A stretch of DNA of 64,000 nt from contig JAFLDV010000024.1 of the NCBI GenBank assembly GCA_017302255.1, forward strand, positions 1 through 64,000, written 5' to 3'. This DNA comes from Gammaproteobacteria bacterium (GTDB lineage Bacteria > Pseudomonadota > Gammaproteobacteria > Enterobacterales > Alteromonadaceae). This document shows, piece by piece, positions 845 to 10,453 of the stretch. The notes beneath the pieces are model-generated. The model saw only the letters and a program-made list of their open reading frames with translations, was not told the DNA's origin and did no database searches. Numbering within the stretch: the first letter of the stretch is position 1; each line of letters opens with the position of its first letter. The position numbers and the translations under genes were made by a program.

Positions 845-3502
845 ATGCAACGCGAACAACACCTTGAACAATTAGGCTTAGCGAGTAATGCAAATAATGC
901 CGACATAGAAGCCGCAATTGCGCAAAAACGTGAACAATTACAGCAGCGCCTAGCTACAGCCCCGACCGAAGCGTTGCAAGCGAAATATCAAGCCGCATTG
1001 ACGAGCTTAGCTGCAAGTGAGGCAGCCTTGTTAACGCCAACCCATCGAGATATCTCCGCTTCTTTATTTGATGATATGCCGCAAACGGCGAGTCAATTTG
1101 ACGATGCCGCCTTGAGTACAGTGCGCTTGCAGCCTGGTACTCTCTTAGCCTCGCGCTATGAAATCAAAGGCCAAATTGGCCAAGGCGGTATGGGGGCTGT
1201 TTACCAAGCCTTTGATAAAAACACCAATGAAGATATTGCAGTGAAGGTGATGCAGCCAAGTTTGCTGAATAACGAGCGTGCGAGAGAGCGCTTTTTAAAT
1301 GAGGCGCGCATTTCGCAAAAACTAAGTCACCCCAATATCGTTAATGTGTTTGATGTGCAACAAGATGGTGAGCTGTTCTTTTTAACGATGGAATTACTCG
1401 AAGGCCAAGACTTACGCCAAGCGATGCAGCAGCGCAAATTAGCAAGGCAGTTGTTTTCCATTGAAGAAGCTTTAGATATCGCAAAGGCGGTTGGCGCAGC
1501 CTTGACTTACGCACACAAATTCACCATTCATCGCGATATCAAACCAGAGAATATCTGGGTGAGTGCTGATGGTGATATCAAAATTATGGACTTTGGGATT
1601 GCTCAAGTGCAAAGCACCAGTCAGCGCACCAAAACAGGTGCTGCGATGGGCACTGCGTACTACATGGCGCCAGAGCAGCTGAAGGGCTCAAAAGACATTG
1701 ATGGCCGTGCTGACCAATACGCATTGGCGGTGATGCTCTATGAATTACTCAGTGGTGAAGTGCCAGCGGGGATGATTGAACCACTGCCTCAGCATCGCAA
1801 AGATGTGAGTAAAAGTTTTGCCGCAGCGGTGCATAAAGCGCTCGCAACTAAAGCTGAAAACCGCTTTGCCACTTTAGATGAATTTATTACCGCCCTATCT
1901 GCCAATAGCAGTGTATTACCTACACTCCCCAGCATCAGCCCAAAAACCTTAGGTTTAGCTGCAGGCATTATTGCCGTCATTGCCACTGGCGTATGGGTAA
2001 GCCAAGGCAATTGGTCAAGTGAGGGTTTAAAGCAGCTATTACCCCAAAGCCAAGCGGAGCTAAGTCAGCAAAAAGCGCAGCTGGCTAAATTGGTAGGCCA
2101 AATCAATGTGACCAAAAAACGCCTTGAAGAAAGCCGCAGCAAACTTGCACAAGACTTAAGAGATGCAGAGCGAGAGCAGGGTAATAGCAAGGCATTAAAA
2201 TCATGGCAAGCACTGACCGAGCAACACCTATTTAACGGCAATCAAATCAGTGAGCTTGAAGGTGAGCTTGCGATGGCAGAAACCTTTAATCGAGATGGTG
2301 AATTTAACCAGGCGAACCAAAGTTACCAAAAGGTGCTGAAAGGCTATAACCAGCAATTGACTGAATTTAACGCTGCAGGACAGCTTTACGGTGCAAGTCA
2401 ACAAACCGCCAATGCAAAAAACCAATGGTTTGAAGTAAAAAGCGAATACAGCTTAACCGACCCAGCAGCAGTTCAACAGGCCCTCAAGCAAGAGCAACAA
2501 GCAGAGGATGCCACCAACAAAGGGGTGTTTACTGAAGCATTAAACGCTTGGCAACAAGCCCAAAATAGCTGGCAACAAGCGCCAAACGAGCGAGGTGAGG
2601 ATATCGCTGCAGTGAAAGCGCAGTGGCGGCAAAATGAACTTGATGCGCAAACGCGCGCTAAAGCTGAGGCGCAAGAGCGTTCGCGCTTAGCGGCGTTAGC
2701 GAAGGCAAAAGCTAAGGCGGAGGCGGAGGCAAAGGAGCAAGCTCAGGTGAAGGTTAGGGAAGCTGAAATTCGAGAGGCTGCACTTGTAGAGGAATATGTT
2801 GGCCAATTAGTCATCATCCCCGCCGGCAGTTTTATGATGGGTTGTAGCGAGGGTGATAGCGAATGTTTTGATGATGAAAAACCGCAACACAGCGTCCATA
2901 TCCAAAGCTTTAAACTGATGAGCATCGAAGTAACCTTCGCCATGTGGGATGCCTGCGTTGCTGCAGGGGGGTGCAGTTATCAACCTGAAGATAAAGGATG
3001 GGGGCGCAGCAATCGCCCGGTGATATATGTCAGTTACGAAGACATTACCCAGCAATTTATCCCATGGCTCAATCAAGCCAGTGGCCAGCGCTTTCGCTTA
3101 CCCACTGAAGCTGAGTGGGAATATGCCGCCCGAGCGGGCAGTTCAACCAAATATAGTTGGGGGAATAGCATCAGCTGCAGCCAAGCTCGATATGGTCAGT
3201 CCGATGGTGATTGCGGTAATGCAAGGAGCACCTTGCCAGTGAAATCCTTTTCCGCCAATGCTTTTGGGCTTTACGATATGCATGGCAATGTGTGGGAGTG
3301 GGCTGCTGATTGCTGGAATGACAATTACCAAGGCGCTCCAAGCAATGGGAGTGCTTGGCAAAGTGGTGATTGCGAGAGGCTCGTGTTGCGCGGCGGCTCG
3401 TGGCTCAATGGTCCTCGGCTCGTGCGCGTGTCTGACCGGAACGGGTACTCTGCTTCGGACCGGAACTTCAACTACGGCTTTCGATTGGCCCAGGACCTTT
3501 AA
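845..3502 (+). CDS. Membrane Ser/Thr protein kinase fused to a C-terminal FGE/sulfatase-modifying-factor domain; likely DGR target
   Basis: An 885-residue fusion. Residues 1-65 are helical with a J-domain-like look but no HPD. A Hanks-type kinase follows (about 98-350) with glycine loop GQGGMG near 112, a VKVM lysine, HRDIKPEN at 229, DFG at 249 and APEQ, so it looks active. One transmembrane helix (about 367-386) is followed by a long Gln/Ala/Lys-rich coiled coil (about 395-650), and an FGE-type domain (about 654-885) starts at IPAGSFMMGC and ends RGGSW...GFRLA. The kinase is probably cytoplasmic and the coil plus FGE fold periplasmic. The last ~35 codons resemble a DGR variable region in the C-type-lectin-like FGE fold. 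In such proteins the fold usually serves for binding, not catalysis. Its ligand and substrates cannot be told from sequence. Confidence 0.9.
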   Translation: MQREQHLEQLGLASNANNADIEAAIAQKREQLQQRLATAPTEALQAKYQAALTSLAASEAALLTPTHRDISASLFDDMPQTASQFDDAALSTVRLQPGTLLASRYEIKGQIGQGGMGAVYQAFDKNTNEDIAVKVMQPSLLNNERARERFLNEARISQKLSHPNIVNVFDVQQDGELFFLTMELLEGQDLRQAMQQRKLARQLFSIEEALDIAKAVGAALTYAHKFTIHRDIKPENIWVSADGDIKIMDFGIAQVQSTSQRTKTGAAMGTAYYMAPEQLKGSKDIDGRADQYALAVMLYELLSGEVPAGMIEPLPQHRKDVSKSFAAAVHKALATKAENRFATLDEFITALSANSSVLPTLPSISPKTLGLAAGIIAVIATGVWVSQGNWSSEGLKQLLPQSQAELSQQKAQLAKLVGQINVTKKRLEESRSKLAQDLRDAEREQGNSKALKSWQALTEQHLFNGNQISELEGELAMAETFNRDGEFNQANQSYQKVLKGYNQQLTEFNAAGQLYGASQQTANAKNQWFEVKSEYSLTDPAAVQQALKQEQQAEDATNKGVFTEALNAWQQAQNSWQQAPNERGEDIAAVKAQWRQNELDAQTRAKAEAQERSRLAALAKAKAKAEAEAKEQAQVKVREAEIREAALVEEYVGQLVIIPAGSFMMGCSEGDSECFDDEKPQHSVHIQSFKLMSIEVTFAMWDACVAAGGCSYQPEDKGWGRSNRPVIYVSYEDITQQFIPWLNQASGQRFRLPTEAEWEYAARAGSSTKYSWGNSISCSQARYGQSDGDCGNARSTLPVKSFSANAFGLYDMHGNVWEWAADCWNDNYQGAPSNGSAWQSGDCERLVLRGGSWLNGPRLVRVSDRNGYSASDRNFNYGFRLAQDL
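3389..3502 (+). other. Candidate DGR variable region (VR) at the end of the kinase-FGE gene
   Basis: This covers codons 849-885, from RGGSW to the stop. Fixed GC-rich blocks (ggcggctcgtgg, gtgcgcgtgtct, two copies of gaccggaac, ggctttcgattggcc) alternate with short stretches whose codons (ctc aat ggt; ggg tac; ttc aac tac) are of the kind produced when AAC/AAT template codons mutate at adenines. In known DGRs the VR occupies this part of FGE/C-type-lectin folds, next to the stop codon. The protein motif alone is also normal for FGE domains, so the call rests on DNA pattern plus the hairpins just downstream. No reverse transcriptase or template repeat is in the window, so the element would act from elsewhere. 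Confidence 0.5.
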
Positions 3503-3523
3503 GGGAGCGCAGCGAGCGTTCCT

Positions 3524-3621
3524 GCGCTTGCAAAGCGCGGTCTGGGCCGAAGGCCCTTTCTGCCCGCTTGCGGGCATTCGCTTGTTGCTTTTGGTGCAGG
3601 CCCGGGCAGCGGGTCTGCACC
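3524..3621 (+). repeat. Cluster of four GC-rich hairpins just after the kinase-FGE stop codon
   Basis: Four inverted repeats lie in 98 bp: 3524-3538 (gcgctt/aagcgc, 3-nt loop), 3544-3556 (gggcc/ggccc, loop gaa), 3561-3576 (7-bp stem, loop tt) and 3593-3621 (12-bp stem with one G-T pair, loop ggcag). None is followed by a T-run, so they are poor intrinsic terminators. DGR variable regions are often followed by a hairpin or cruciform that assists target recognition, which would fit here. Confidence 0.6.
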
Positions 3622-3660
3622 TTCGTTATAAATTTATACTCTATTGAGCTTATTTAGTGC

Positions 3661-3747
3661 ATTGTGAGCGCCATCATTGTGAGCGTCATTGTGAGCGTCA
3701 TTGTGAGCATCATTGTGAGCATCATTGTGAGCATCATTGTGAGCGCT
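3661..3747. repeat. 12-bp tandem repeat between convergent genes
   Basis: Seven imperfect copies of attgtgagcrtc run from 3661 to 3747, the first separated from the second by an extra 3 bp (atc). The array lies between the 3' ends of the kinase-FGE gene and the coiled-coil gene on the other strand. It gives open frames on both strands, with a His-Asn-Asp-Ala periodicity on the minus strand, but these look like by-products of the repeat. Confidence 0.85.
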
Positions 3748-3781
3748 ATAGCATGCCCACTTGTGGCGACCTTCGCTGCAT

Positions 3782-5560
3782 TTAATCGGGGCCGCAACTT
3801 GGATTCTGTGATTTTTTCTGCTTACACGCCTCGGCAATGTCTTTGGCTTTAGCTTCAATTCCTTGGATGCGAGTATTCAATCGCTTTACTGAGCGAAGCA
3901 TGCCTTCCAATTGCCGCACGCCATTGGTGGCATCACCGCGACTTGTTCGCACATTGGATTGCGCTGTTTCGCATTGCCCGCGAAGTTCAATCGCCGCCTT
4001 TAACTGGCTCCCGCAAGTGACTTGTGCGTTATAAGCATCTAATTTGTAGTCCTTGGCTTGGGTGACAGCTTTTTCAGCGCGCTGCAGCAGGTTCGTAAAT
4101 TCATTTTCGGCTGTTTTTGCGGCAGCTTGCGCGTCGCCAAGTAGGGTGGCAATTTCGCTGCTTTTTGTTTCAAGCTGCTCTTTGGCTTCATCGGCGCTAG
4201 TGGTGCGGCCTGATAGCAGAGTAAGGATATTTTTAAGGTTGTTTAAATCCCCCTGCGCCTGACTAATTGCATCTGTACTGGCTTTTAGTTGGTTGGTTGC
4301 TGCAGTTTGCTTTTCGTTTGCCTGAGTGACTGCACTTACCGCATTTAAAAGTTCTGTTTGGGCTGAGTTGGCAGCTGCTGTGGCCTGAGTTGCAGCTTGA
4401 TTGGCGTGGGTTAACTCTTGATTGGCTTGACCAAGCGCTTGCGCAGTTTGTGCTGCAGTTTGTTGTGAACGCGCAGTAGCTTGGGTCGCCGCTGCTTTAT
4501 CCTCTTCTGCTTTAGCAAGTGCGGCAGCGCTTTGTTGTTCGGCATGCGTGGCTTGCTCTGCGCTTTGGTGGCTTTTTTCGGTGTGTTGCAAGGCTTGTTG
4601 TTCGGCGGCATCCGCTTGTTTTGCGGCGGTAGTTGCGTTGCCCTCAGCTTGTTTGGCCCCTGCGGCGGCTTGTTTGGCTGATTCTTGGCTTACAGTGGCT
4701 TGCTCACTGGCTTGTTCTGCAGCTTCAGCACTGGCTTTGGCCTGTTCGACAGCAGTTTGTACTTGCTGCAAATCGGCTGCTGCAGTCGCGGCTGCATCAG
4801 CAGCTTTTTCTGCAGCCTGACCTGCAATGCCTGCTAACACTTTAGCATTCCCTTGTGCTTGCAGTGCATGCTGGAGTTGTTGTGTGCTGTAAAGTGATTG
4901 ATTCGATGCGACATTCGCAGCTTGTTCAGCCGAATTGGCATATGCAAAGGCTTCACCAGCAACGTTGGTTGCCTGTTGTTGCTGGTAAGTGCTGGTATTT
5001 GCACTATGACTGGCATGTTGAGCCTGTTCGTTGGAGCTCTGATTTGCCTGCGCCGCATGCTGTGCCTCTTCGGCGCTCTGCTGGTTCGCAGTACGTGAGC
5101 CTTGGGCGGCGTGTTCTGCCGATGCCGCAGTGGCAGTGGTTTGTTCAAGGGCTGCTTGGCTGCTAGCTAACAATTCTGCGATTTGCTGTGCACGTTGTTG
5201 TGCTACTTGGCTATTCTGCTGTGCTTGGTTGGCGAAAGTTTCTGCTTGCCGTGCCGCGACATTTGCCTGGTTGGCACTTTGAAAGGCTTGTTGCAGCTGA
5301 GCCGTTGCTTGCTGATTGGCGCCTCCAGCCAGTTGGACTGCTTGTAATGCTTGCTGTAGTGCTAACGTCGCGCTATGCGCTTGTTGCTGTGTTTGTTCTA
5401 GGGCTTGATTTGCCTGTGCGGCCGTTGTGGCTGCATGTTGTGCAGCCAATAGCGCAGCTTGATGTTCGTTTGCGCTCAGGCTCGCCGCTTGTTGAGCCTG
5501 AGTCGCCGCGAACTGTGCGCTTTGGGCAAACGATGTGTCATGGATTGGCGCCTTGGTCAT
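3782..5560 (-). CDS. Ala/Gln-rich coiled-coil protein, second of a tandem pair
   Basis: A 592-residue protein starting at ATG 5560. The frame extends 7 codons further up, but a GGAGG motif sits 5 nt before this ATG and just after the stop of the upstream gene (5572). No signal peptide or membrane segment is seen. Residues about 10-420 are an almost unbroken Ala/Gln/Ser/Thr helix-forming repeat with small residues every three to four positions, as in Ala-coils. The last ~170 residues are more ordinary and charged, with four cysteines (TCGSQ, GQCET, EACKQ, PSCGP). It is the same size and design as its upstream neighbour and probably cotranscribed. Function is unknown; an elongated structural rod or fibre is an inference from composition. 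Confidence 0.75.
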   Translation of the reverse strand: MTKAPIHDTSFAQSAQFAATQAQQAASLSANEHQAALLAAQHAATTAAQANQALEQTQQQAHSATLALQQALQAVQLAGGANQQATAQLQQAFQSANQANVAARQAETFANQAQQNSQVAQQRAQQIAELLASSQAALEQTTATAASAEHAAQGSRTANQQSAEEAQHAAQANQSSNEQAQHASHSANTSTYQQQQATNVAGEAFAYANSAEQAANVASNQSLYSTQQLQHALQAQGNAKVLAGIAGQAAEKAADAAATAAADLQQVQTAVEQAKASAEAAEQASEQATVSQESAKQAAAGAKQAEGNATTAAKQADAAEQQALQHTEKSHQSAEQATHAEQQSAAALAKAEEDKAAATQATARSQQTAAQTAQALGQANQELTHANQAATQATAAANSAQTELLNAVSAVTQANEKQTAATNQLKASTDAISQAQGDLNNLKNILTLLSGRTTSADEAKEQLETKSSEIATLLGDAQAAAKTAENEFTNLLQRAEKAVTQAKDYKLDAYNAQVTCGSQLKAAIELRGQCETAQSNVRTSRGDATNGVRQLEGMLRSVKRLNTRIQGIEAKAKDIAEACKQKKSQNPSCGPD

Positions 5561-5571
5561 TGATGCCTCCG

Positions 5572-7341
5572 TTAAACGCAAATTTTCGCGATATTTTGCA
5601 TGGCTTCGTTCGCTTCATTTTCAACGCTGTGCATATCCTCAAGCAAGAGCCTGGCTTGATCGACTAGTTTCACCACTTCATTCGAACCCGCCTGCGCGTC
5701 ATCAGCAGCGGTTTTAGCCATCTCACAAACATCAATGGTTTTTGTGCGTAAATCGACTGCTGTTTGATTTTCTTTCCAAGCACCCTCAGCTGCTTTTTTT
5801 GCTTCAACCGCATAACTTTCAGCATTGCTTGCGGCCTCTGCGGCTTTTGTCTGCATTTTGTTCAGTAATGAGGCGAGTTCTTTACTTTTTTCCAGCGCAT
5901 CGTTTTTTAATTTTTCTGCGGCATTTCGCGCTGATTGTGCTTGCCGGAGATACTCTTCGGCTTTAGCTAAGAAGCCGCGCGCATCGGAAAGGACTTGGTT
6001 AACCTCATCGGCATTTTTGTCAGCTTTGGATGCTGCTTCGGTTGCGGAACTTGCGGCACTTGTCGCGAGTGCGACTTGGGCTGCTGCTTGCGCTGCTGCT
6101 TGGGCGCTTTGATTTGCTTCCCCCTGCGCCTGATTGGCTGCGCTATTGGCTTGCGATGCTGCGCCAGCCGCTTGGCTTGCTTGGCTGGTGGCTTGTTGTG
6201 CAGCGGCTAAGCTCTCAGCGGCAGAACTACTGGCATTGGCATGTGCTGCCGCGGTCTGCTGGGCTTCTTGGGTTGCTTTTTCACTGGCTTGTTGGGCTTT
6301 TTCTGCTTCGGTTTGCGCTTGTTTAGCTTGTTCTGCTGCATCTTCAGCGGCCTTGGTTGCCGCTTGTTGTTGCGCTTGCGCTTGCTCTGACGCCTGTTCG
6401 GCTTCCACTTGTTCCGCTTTCACGGCTTGAGCAACAAACTGCGCCTGTTCTGATTGTCCTTGCGCAAACGTCGCAGCATTATTCGCTAGCGCAGCGTCTT
6501 TAGTTGCACTCTCAGCAGCGATACTAGAATTGGTTGCACTCGCATTCGCTTGGTCTGCTGCAGTGATTGCTTCTTCACTTTCAGATCTAGCTGTATTAGC
6601 AGCAGCTTCAGCCTCTAGTGAAGCCTGGCGCGCTTGTTCGCCCGCGGTTTGGGCGGCTTGCGCATCTTGCTGCGCTTCCCTTGCCGCTATTTCTGCTGCT
6701 CTCGCTTGACCACTGGCATCATGTGCCGCTGTTGTTGCTTGGTTTGCTTGTTGTTCAGCGGTGCTTGCCGCTTGGCTTGCGCTTGCTGAGTAATTCCCAG
6801 CTTGTGCGGCTGCACTTGCCGCCGTATTGGCTTGTTGCTGTGCTTCGGCCGCGGCACTTGCCGCTGCTGTTGCGCCTTGTTCAGCTTGGCTGGCTGATTG
6901 ATTAACACTTGCTGCAGCTTGACTGGCTTGACTGGCGGCACCTTCAGTAGTGCTAGCAAAATTCTGGCTTTGGGTAGCGTTCTGCTCCGAACTATTTGCT
7001 GCCTGATTTGCTTGTTCTGCTAACCGCTGGGCTTCCTGCGCTGATTGCGCTGAAGCGATCGCTTGCTGCTGCGCTTCATTCGCGGCTGCACCCGCTTGAC
7101 CTGCAGTGTGTTGGCTTTGTTGCATAGCTTCCGCGCTATTAGCACTGTGCTGCTGTGAAAGATTGGAGGCCTGTTGGGATTGACCTGCTTGGTTTTGAGC
7201 CATGCCAGCTTCGGCTTGCGAGCGCTGCTGCTCCATCCCAGCTTGCTGTGCTGCTTGTTGCGCGTTTTCCGCTTCCTGACGAGCCCGTGCAAGTTGTTGC
7301 TCGGCTTCGGCGTTGAGTTGGTTTACGTTATTTGTTGCCAT
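5572..7341 (-). CDS. Ala/Gln-rich coiled-coil protein, first of a tandem pair
   Basis: A 589-residue protein with ATG at 7341 preceded by an AGGAT-type ribosome site. It starts with an acidic/Gln-rich helix (ATNNVNQLNAEAEQQLARAR), continues for about 430 residues as Ala/Gln/Ser-rich coiled coil with frequent AAxxA and QAAxQA units, and ends in about 140 residues of charged helices (KLKNDALEKSKELASLL onward) with two cysteines. It has no export signal or membrane helix. It lies 11 bp upstream of its look-alike, suggesting duplication and a two-gene operon. The codons are clearly coding on this strand; the opposite-strand open frames are Cys/Leu/Ala mirror products. No family was recognised with confidence. 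Confidence 0.75.
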   Translation of the reverse strand: MATNNVNQLNAEAEQQLARARQEAENAQQAAQQAGMEQQRSQAEAGMAQNQAGQSQQASNLSQQHSANSAEAMQQSQHTAGQAGAAANEAQQQAIASAQSAQEAQRLAEQANQAANSSEQNATQSQNFASTTEGAASQASQAAASVNQSASQAEQGATAAASAAAEAQQQANTAASAAAQAGNYSASASQAASTAEQQANQATTAAHDASGQARAAEIAAREAQQDAQAAQTAGEQARQASLEAEAAANTARSESEEAITAADQANASATNSSIAAESATKDAALANNAATFAQGQSEQAQFVAQAVKAEQVEAEQASEQAQAQQQAATKAAEDAAEQAKQAQTEAEKAQQASEKATQEAQQTAAAHANASSSAAESLAAAQQATSQASQAAGAASQANSAANQAQGEANQSAQAAAQAAAQVALATSAASSATEAASKADKNADEVNQVLSDARGFLAKAEEYLRQAQSARNAAEKLKNDALEKSKELASLLNKMQTKAAEAASNAESYAVEAKKAAEGAWKENQTAVDLRTKTIDVCEMAKTAADDAQAGSNEVVKLVDQARLLLEDMHSVENEANEAMQNIAKICV

Positions 7342-8493: not shown

Positions 8494-9258
8494 CTATTTG
8501 ATTTTTACTAACCTAAATCCGATGAAAGGTAACCTTTTATTTGCAGGTAAAGAATAGTCCTCGCAGATGTAGGGGTTATCATGAAAAAATGAAGCGCCTA
8601 ATGCAAAAACTTCATCACATGAATCATCTGCACAACTTGATGTGAATTCCGAAACGTTTGATTGCATTCCATTTAATCCAGACACATCTGATTGTTGGCT
8701 GGATACAGGTCTGGTGTGTTTCGGATTATCCACGTTAACATCGCTCTCTTCGCTATAAATTTTAGGGTTTGCTAGCAGGGATGCATATCGCCATTCATCC
8801 GCTGTAGGAAGTCGATATTTACCTGCACCTTTGTTATTTAGCCATTCGATGTAAGCCTGAATATCGACCAAAGCTAGACAAACCACAGGTTCATAATCAG
8901 TTTGCAGAAACCCCGGATTTTGCCAGCTTTTCGAGTTTACCCACACACCATCGTAAGGCCGACAAGCCTTTTGCCCTTCTGAAGCTCGTTCCGCTAGCGT
9001 CACATAACCAGTCTCTGCAATAAATTTGCGGAACATCGCAACTGTTGTTTCATGCTGAGCGATTTCAAATTCAGATATTGTCGCTTGGAATTTTTTCTCA
9101 ATAGTGGTACCACAGGGAACAGCGATAGGAGGACATGCATAGTCCAACTGACCAGCAGTGATCTTCACAAAAGGAATTAAATCCGGTTCTGGTGATGTCG
9201 CGCATCCACCCAAAAACAATACTGTAAAAAGTAAAAATGAATTTTTCATTCGATACAT
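8494..9258 (-). CDS. Lipoprotein with FGE/sulfatase-modifying-factor fold
   Basis: A 254-residue protein with a lipoprotein signal (hydrophobic stretch then LGGC at about 16-19), so an envelope lipoprotein. The rest is an FGE-type domain: early EIAQHETTVAMFRKFIAETGY, then RLPTADEWRYAS near 150, a shortened LNGMQSNVSEFTSSC in place of the usual GNVWEW block, and a final GFRLV. Loss of the canonical block suggests a binding rather than enzymatic role. ATG 9258 is very close to its GGAG; ATG 9249 is the alternative. It shares the fold of the kinase-FGE protein 5 kb away but lacks the DGR-like 3' end. It could work with that kinase, but only proximity suggests so. Confidence 0.75.
   Translation of the reverse strand: MYRMKNSFLLFTVLFLGGCATSPEPDLIPFVKITAGQLDYACPPIAVPCGTTIEKKFQATISEFEIAQHETTVAMFRKFIAETGYVTLAERASEGQKACRPYDGVWVNSKSWQNPGFLQTDYEPVVCLALVDIQAYIEWLNNKGAGKYRLPTADEWRYASLLANPKIYSEESDVNVDNPKHTRPVSSQQSDVSGLNGMQSNVSEFTSSCADDSCDEVFALGASFFHDNPYICEDYSLPANKRLPFIGFRLVKIK

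Positions 9259-10215: not shown

Positions 10216-10292
<77 letters not shown>

Positions 10293-10376: not shown

Positions 10377-10453
<77 letters not shown>

Follow-up and report, generated by a model that had tools for sequence, protein, structure and literature searches.

Variable proteins of diversity-generating retroelements (DGRs) that join a Ser/Thr kinase to a C-terminal C-type lectin (CLec) domain have been described in cyanobacteria, with the variable region (VR) at the 3′ end of the gene and with some of the genes remote from the reverse transcriptase (RT) (PMC7517822). A gene of similar build is considered here, a receptor-like kinase with a C-terminal domain of the formylglycine-generating enzyme (FGE) fold, encoded near the start of a 64,000-nt stretch of DNA from a member of the Alteromonadaceae (Gammaproteobacteria; assembly GCA_017302255.1, contig JAFLDV010000024.1, positions 1 to 64,000). 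This whole stretch, as analysed, is referred to as the window. The cyanobacterial genomes have an RT and a template of more than 50% identity, neither of which was found here. The reading favored below, with a probability of roughly two in three, is that of an orphan DGR target: a DGR that was later lost, or that is there only from time to time, would have written the tip, which is presumably fixed now. This reading builds on directly observed gene anatomy, codon signature, hairpins and relatives, and on an assembly in which no RT or template was detected.

Targets without a DGR have precedents. Isolates of Treponema denticola keep VR-bearing targets in genomes that lack RT and template repeat (TR), which have been read as remnants of lost DGRs; there, however, other isolates supply the template, whereas none is known for the present gene and the pattern spans several genera. 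Lipoprotein signals are found in 62% of the T. denticola targets (PMC4891356). In Thiohalocapsa PB-PSB1, degenerate DGR loci likewise hold CLec targets in conflict-type loci, some without key machinery, and a figure legend names Pkinase, NACHT and TIR along with other domains; unlike in the window, the genome there also contains one complete locus for each class (PMC10907252). In phage DGRs a hairpin just past the VR is required for target recognition, and the BPP-1 target site has a hairpin within tens of bases past the VR and a GC-rich initiation of mutagenic homing (IMH) sequence at the VR end (PMC3240598); the window gene has hairpins and an IMH-like end in these places, the hairpins being shorter in stem and loop. 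Taken singly, both kinase-lectin DGR targets and orphan targets lacking an RT have been described before; their combination across several genera within a single gammaproteobacterial family appears to be new, as does, as far as the literature searched shows, the recognition of such targets without an RT or template. No description of such genes in this family was found in that literature.

Codon signature of the variable-region-like tip

The mutable codon positions in the window gene were set from independent, real DGR templates rather than from the window itself. IMG/VR contigs were searched with a template-like pattern built from a codon motif, which gave six yardstick loci with FGE-type DGRs. 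All six have an RT open frame, and the four distinct RTs score 55–88 bits with Pfam RVT_1. A TR/VR pair is present in five of them (L118/L121 and L119/L120 being near-duplicates), with template-A mismatches of 8/10, 18/22, 25/29, 26/30 and 18/22; in L116 a template-like sequence is present, and neither strand of the locus holds a VR. The templates read RGGSW (RGGSF in L117), then NNN..N....N.N.N...N.NNN., then GFR, with AAY codons at inner positions 1, 2, 3, 6, 11, 13, 15, 19, 21, 22 and 23 (L116 and L117 differ at 3). The TR/VR screen detects pairs in L117–L121 and in L152, a locus described further below, on the right strand; searched on one strand each, the plasmid, gut and spring contigs L110–L115 and the Rheinheimera baltica locus L086 gave no pair.

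The corresponding features of the window gene are:

3389–3484, forward strand: VR-like segment RGGSW(24 codons)GFR, with inner codons at 3404–3475, NNY at 11/11 canonical AAY positions, and A-depleted fixed codons
3476–3499, forward strand: GC-rich, IMH-like end (GGCTTTCGATTGGCCCAGGACCTT), closely resembling those of two R. baltica genes

As in a DGR variable protein, the 3′ end has NNY at every one of the 11 template-AAY positions (CTC AAT GGT CTC GAC AAC TAC GAC AAC TTC AAC). At inner position 14 the window gene has GGG, the codon being AGG in three of the four distinct templates. Adenine avoidance, also a mark of DGR variable proteins, is found as well: the 18 fixed codons contain a single A in 54 bases, whereas synonymous resampling with the codon use of the whole gene predicts 6.18 (P 0.0013), and when codon use was taken from a shorter stretch the expectation was 7.4–7.5 A (P <0.001). 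None of the other three bases (C, G, T) is depleted in these codons, so the pattern is not simply one of high GC; high local GC was considered as the cause of the adenine loss and is ruled out by the undepleted T. With all codons counted, the 867 18-codon stretches of the gene were ranked by A-depletion, and the top 12 begin at 3380–3428. Read from its sequence, the tip bears the signature of copying from a template that keeps A only where change is wanted.

Comparison with other FGE genes gives a similar contrast. Codons containing A make up 1/16 at fixed positions of the window gene and 35/98 upstream (one-sided Fisher P 0.014), and no such codon occurs there in two proven DGR targets, L119 and L117 (0/15 each). 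In 20 non-VR FGE controls, picked among genes without the signature, the counts were 62/265 at the VR fixed positions vs. 558/1896 upstream (the second R. baltica gene, Rb2, is outside the pooled gene counts of this comparison, for which the signature partly guided the selection of genes).

The first-pass annotation of this DNA had pointed to a kinase-FGE gene with fixed GC-rich blocks, two copies of gaccggaac, and hairpins. All of these are where it placed them, the hairpins lying after the stop codon, with gaccggaac inside repeats at 3431–3442 and 3455–3466, gtgcgcgtgtct at 3422–3433 and ggctttcgattggcc at 3476–3490. The gene itself matches PF00069 over aa 105–325 and PF03781 over aa 654–882. 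The annotation also described the 3′ end as variable-region-like and in the FGE fold position; that it is a DGR-type VR is now well supported by the codon pattern (11/11 NNY), the adenine depletion, the hairpins, the fold position and the relatives.

Domain architecture and downstream hairpins

The VR-like tip ends a gene with four mapped parts:

845–3502, forward strand: receptor-like Ser/Thr kinase with C-terminal FGE-fold domain, 885 aa (open reading frame; Pfam PF00069 and PF03781)
1157–1819, forward strand: protein kinase domain, aa 105–325 (Pfam PF00069, E 5.3e-49)
1946–2002, forward strand: single predicted membrane helix, aa 368–386 (hydropathy maximum 1.93 over 19 residues)
2804–3490, forward strand: FGE-sulfatase / C-type-lectin-like domain, aa 654–882 (Pfam PF03781, E 9.2e-54)

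A Q/A/K-rich stretch lies between the membrane helix and the FGE domain, which would be on the opposite side of the membrane from the kinase. The C-terminal domain is nearest to PvdO (5hha; sequence E 3e-45, template-modeling (TM) score of the model fold 0.81) and so has the fold and sequence family of PvdO and the formylglycine-generating enzymes. It also matches variable protein 1 of Treponema denticola (2y3c), a DGR variable protein (E 1.9e-14, TM 0.70), so that by family (PF03781) and by sequence and fold (2y3c) the VR is borne by a lectin/FGE-type fold, as expected of a DGR variable protein. Part of the VR is modeled with low confidence (mean pLDDT 56, model residues 211–220). Unlike FGE, the window protein is fused to a kinase and a membrane helix, and within the C-terminal motif none of its cysteines lines up with a cysteine of 6muj or 2q17. 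In the bacterial FGE 6muj the two cysteines (SYLCHDSYCNRY) are taken here to be the active-site pair. An active FGE enzyme was considered and ruled out, these cysteines being missing from the window protein.

The kinase domain has Stk1/PknB as its best NCBIfam match, at 250.8 bits and under the cut-off of 450. The kinase part of 845–3502 also matches many PADLOC models of the phage-defense kinase PD-T4-6 (best 244.8 bits), which probably reflects the common kinase fold.

Downstream of the stop codon, a cluster of inverted repeats was mapped:

3503–3523, unstranded: first inverted repeat after the stop, containing GAGCGCAGCGAGCG at 3505–3518
3524–3538, unstranded: hairpin GCGCTT-GCA-AAGCGC, 6-bp stem, GNA loop, 22 nt after the stop
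3544–3556, unstranded: hairpin GGGCC-GAA-GGCCC, 5-bp stem, GNA loop, 42 nt after the stop
3561–3576, unstranded: hairpin TGCCCG-CTTG-CGGGCA
3593–3621, forward strand: terminator-like stem-loop of 12 pairs, followed by TTCGTTATAA (terminator scan)

Folded as single-stranded DNA, 3476–3640 is better than each of 200 shuffles (z -5.2). A plain terminator was tried as an explanation for all of the hairpins and rejected: of the stems at 3503–3621, the scan flags only 3593–3621 and, more weakly, 3570–3585. GNA-loop hairpins also follow proven DGR genes, at +23 in L117, at +42 in L118 and only at +90 in L119, and the family member G177 has them at +22 and +40. A GNA hairpin with a stem of at least 5 bp starts no more than 60 nt past the stop in 4/17 VR-like FGE ends, 1/39 others and 65/16400 random places; the ends counted have 24 inner codons (L118, with a 25-codon tip, is outside the 17), and the 17/39 split rests on the same codon signature and includes the near-duplicate loci L119 and L120. 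Just past the hairpin cluster, at 3660–3767 of the window, there is an array of 12-bp tandem repeats with a unit like CATCATTGTGAG.

Relatives in the family

In a homologue search of the family, 155 of 395 genomes had matches at E<=1e-20. Of the 21 highest-ranking homologues besides the window gene, 20 were scored (G087 could not be scored by the pattern used), and A-depletion was found at p<0.05 in 12 and at p<=0.005 in eight. Kinase-FGE fusions occur in G119, G217 and G372 (by blastp) and in G377 (by eye), and that of G217 is about 40% identical to the window gene over most of its length. In R. baltica DSM 14885 (G373) there are two tandem FGE genes, Rb1 and Rb2, whose starts are 93% identical over 361 nt and whose tips have diverged, except for a stretch made up of approximately 31 bases at the end of the coding sequence and the 37 nt after it, which is identical at 62/68 positions. 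Both share GGCTTTCG.TT.GCCCAGGAC.TT with the window gene; GAGCGCAGCGAGCG is identical after Rb1 and altered after the other R. baltica gene. Four G119 tips that were compared are 0.80–0.87 identical at fixed codons and 0.39–0.55 at mutable codons.

Further loci with FGE genes were noted. G119 has five FGE or kinase-FGE genes in 35 kb (C1:2128245-2162983; L184–L185), several with VR-like ends; this cluster contains further kinase matches and one FGE match with an internal TAG. In the gammaproteobacteria G869 (L127) and G827 (L132) there are FGE ends with the same NNY pattern and few adenines (fixed codons hold 0 and 1 A, respectively), and G827 has 14 FGE matches.

Synonymous codon use was compared among eight genes: the window gene, Rb1, G372C4, G377, G119b, c and e, and G177 (Rb2 is outside the pair counts). 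Codon pairs for the same residue differ equally often in the fixed VR codons (172/381) and upstream (1509/3209). Differences in R, G, S, P, A, V and L codons involve A in 24/169 cases in the fixed VR codons vs. 419/915 upstream, a pooled effect size that is biased because the eight genes were partly chosen by signature and the pairs are non-independent. Frequent synonymous differences that seldom involve adenine suggest, at the level of codons, repeated templating, since a single ancient tip would gain adenines as it drifted, which would not happen with different adenine-avoiding templates.

Besides that bias, several points weigh against an orphan DGR target. Long drift should erode a low adenine count, so that the loss would have to be recent or the writing intermittent. 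No template was found that would demonstrate adenine-directed change, and the comparison covered one genome per species. The hairpins are not general, as 13/17 VR-like ends, the proven L119 included, have no GNA hairpin of at least 5 bp within 60 nt; nor are those in the window of the phage DGR type, having 5–6-bp stems and 3-nt GNA loops, two in a row, instead of 7–10-bp stems and 4-nt GRNA loops (PMC3240598). Eight of the 20 scored homologues miss p 0.05: G343 (0.83), G153 (0.39), G215 (0.41), G197 (0.23), G125 (0.89), G266 (0.61), G217 (0.07) and one G372 gene (0.06). PvdO aligns as RSGNRNNAAPSDRGDWIGFRVAREL at the tip, and natural FGE-fold proteins have similar residues there, so that the amino-acid pattern alone proves little. 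Lastly, five of the controls are also low in A codons (L141 0/13, L146 0/13, L149 1/14, L162 1/11, L032 1/15).

These last three points, with the R..R..GFR framework common to PvdO and other FGEs, also speak for an ordinary FGE-fold domain, in which the residues would be ancestral and the codon pattern a coincidence or a local GC effect. However, the depletion is specific to adenine and recurs in 12 of the 20 scored close homologues, and the overall frequency of A codons in the controls (62/265) contrasts with that in the window gene (1/16) and in the two proven targets (0/15 each); an ordinary domain is accordingly judged distinctly unlikely.

Search for a reverse transcriptase and origin of the tip

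The assembly, 4,031,574 bases in 77 contigs and 99.89% complete, has no RVT_1 match anywhere by profile search and no match to an alignment of the four DGR-type RTs (an alignment search without a positive control of its own). The DNA of the VR, 3380–3502, matches only itself in the genome at E<=0.001, and a template screen of both strands of the 64-kb window found no template. The first-pass annotation had noted neither RT nor template repeat in the window, which is borne out and extends to the whole assembly, and it had proposed a genome-wide check for a second copy of the 3′ end beside a DGR RT, which came back empty on both counts. Its interpretation as a remotely diversified DGR target stands in part: the DGR-type VR is well supported, but diversification from elsewhere in this genome is not, neither an RT nor a template copy having been found in it. 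By the annotation's own refuting condition, an assembly in which no DGR RT is detected tells against a resident DGR; it does not refute past diversification, or a mobile DGR missing from the assembly. Of the features of a complete DGR, a DGR-type RT in the genome and a template repeat with adenine-specific mismatches to the VR were both looked for and not found, and because these two are defining the gene is classed as a DGR-type target without its DGR rather than as a DGR.

As a positive control, the same RVT_1 search finds an RT in the congener G021, beside a template and two VRs in which 13/14 and 15/16 mismatches are of the adenine type; the VR is not FGE-type. Three of the four control RTs for RVT_1 come from loci with a TR/VR pair, the fourth being that of L116. 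The G021 stretch of RT, template and two VRs (L152, L153) looks phage-like by eye and is present twice, about 24 kb apart, with the same mismatch counts; the RT frames of the two copies end differently, at 456 and 435 aa.

Searches of related genomes gave a similar picture. No RT was found in the whole genomes of R. baltica (G373) or G217, so that with the window genome 3/3 target-bearing genomes searched whole are negative. The fetched stretches around close homologues contained no DGR RT (for G372, G177 and G377 the RT screening was limited to such stretches), nor did the DGR-RT model find one in the 2.08 Mb screened of the 4.87-Mb G119 genome; blastn with four G119 tips against the same 2.08 Mb matched only its own five FGE genes. 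Pattern searches were likewise negative. In viral contigs, the VR core pattern had seven matches and the IMH pattern three, and a VR/TR pattern had nine matches, all of them unrelated. Besides the window, the IMH pattern was matched in 394 genomes of the order only by three one-mismatch hits in unrelated frames. The joint pattern of the IMH end and GAGCGCAGCGAGCG (a 14-mer) had no viral matches and four among GTDB contigs, three in unrelated frames, R. baltica being the sole FGE gene among them. VR and TR patterns of the R. baltica type had no matches, and distant blastn searches of plasmids and phages found none.

The main rival explanation is a live remote DGR, with RT and template still in the organism, in a gap of the 77-contig draft or on a plasmid or prophage, and rewriting the gene in trans. 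The VR does look fresh, with a single A among its 54 fixed bases, cyanobacteria have kinase-lectin targets remote from the RT (PMC7517822), and the congener G021 has a DGR, though with a different kind of target. Against these stand the near-complete assembly (99.89%) without an RVT_1 or DGR-RT match or a second VR copy, and the RT-negative R. baltica and G217 genomes, both searched whole, and a live DGR is considered unlikely.

The tip and its 3′ hairpins could also have been recombined, already diversified, from a DGR-bearing relative and never rewritten here. Local GC is as high as 0.64 at 3376–3625, but an adenine-avoiding template would likewise give high GC. The IMH-like end and GAGCGCAGCGAGCG are common to the window and R. 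baltica while the rest of the tip is different, and FGE homologues were found in only 1/21 congeners (G010), as such a transfer might leave them; the fixed VR codons, on the other hand, differ synonymously between the compared species, so that no close donor is in hand. A transferred module is thought very improbable.

For an orphan DGR target, past rewriting, membrane topology, ligand sensing and DGR loss are conditional steps, which would run as follows. An error-prone RT would have copied an adenine-rich template, randomizing the template adenines (AAC/AAT codons), and the complementary DNA would have replaced the 3′ end of the gene, guided by the GC-rich end at ~3476–3499 and the hairpins just past the stop. 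The RT and template would later have gone from the sequenced genome, leaving the tip presumably fixed, perhaps as a selected ligand-binding surface outside the membrane that signals across it to the kinase. A broader proposal, that across this gammaproteobacterial family a whole repertoire of receptor kinases and FGE proteins time-shares a mobile DGR, is conceivable and doubtful; RT and template would come and go on prophages or plasmids, rewrite resident receptors in trans, and leave frozen adenine-free tips. It would explain adenine-poor fixed codons despite the synonymous turnover between genera and three RT-negative genomes out of the three target-bearing ones searched whole.

DGR surveys start from the RT and so overlook RT-less targets. 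The adenine-avoidance test recognizes a DGR-written region without an RT or template, so that a genome-wide listing of orphan targets is possible. Should a transient mutator repeatedly retune receptor kinases that afterwards become fixed, bacteria would possess a means of maturing their sensing receptors and retaining the outcome, and counts of RTs would underestimate how widespread DGR activity is.

Other genes were noted in the same part of the window. Two adjoining and slightly overlapping genes on the reverse strand, 3782–5581 and 5572–7341, encode Ala/Gln/Ser-rich proteins of 599 and 589 aa, neither with a match at E<=0.001 in Pfam, NCBIfam or PADLOC. Five kilobases from the kinase-FGE gene there is a second, diverged FGE-like gene (8494–9258, reverse strand), which ends in GFRLVKIK without an RGG.W VR start. 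Farther along, also on the reverse strand, two tRNA genes with equal Rfam scores of 61.3 bits (10219–10292 and 10380–10453) lie 87 bases apart.

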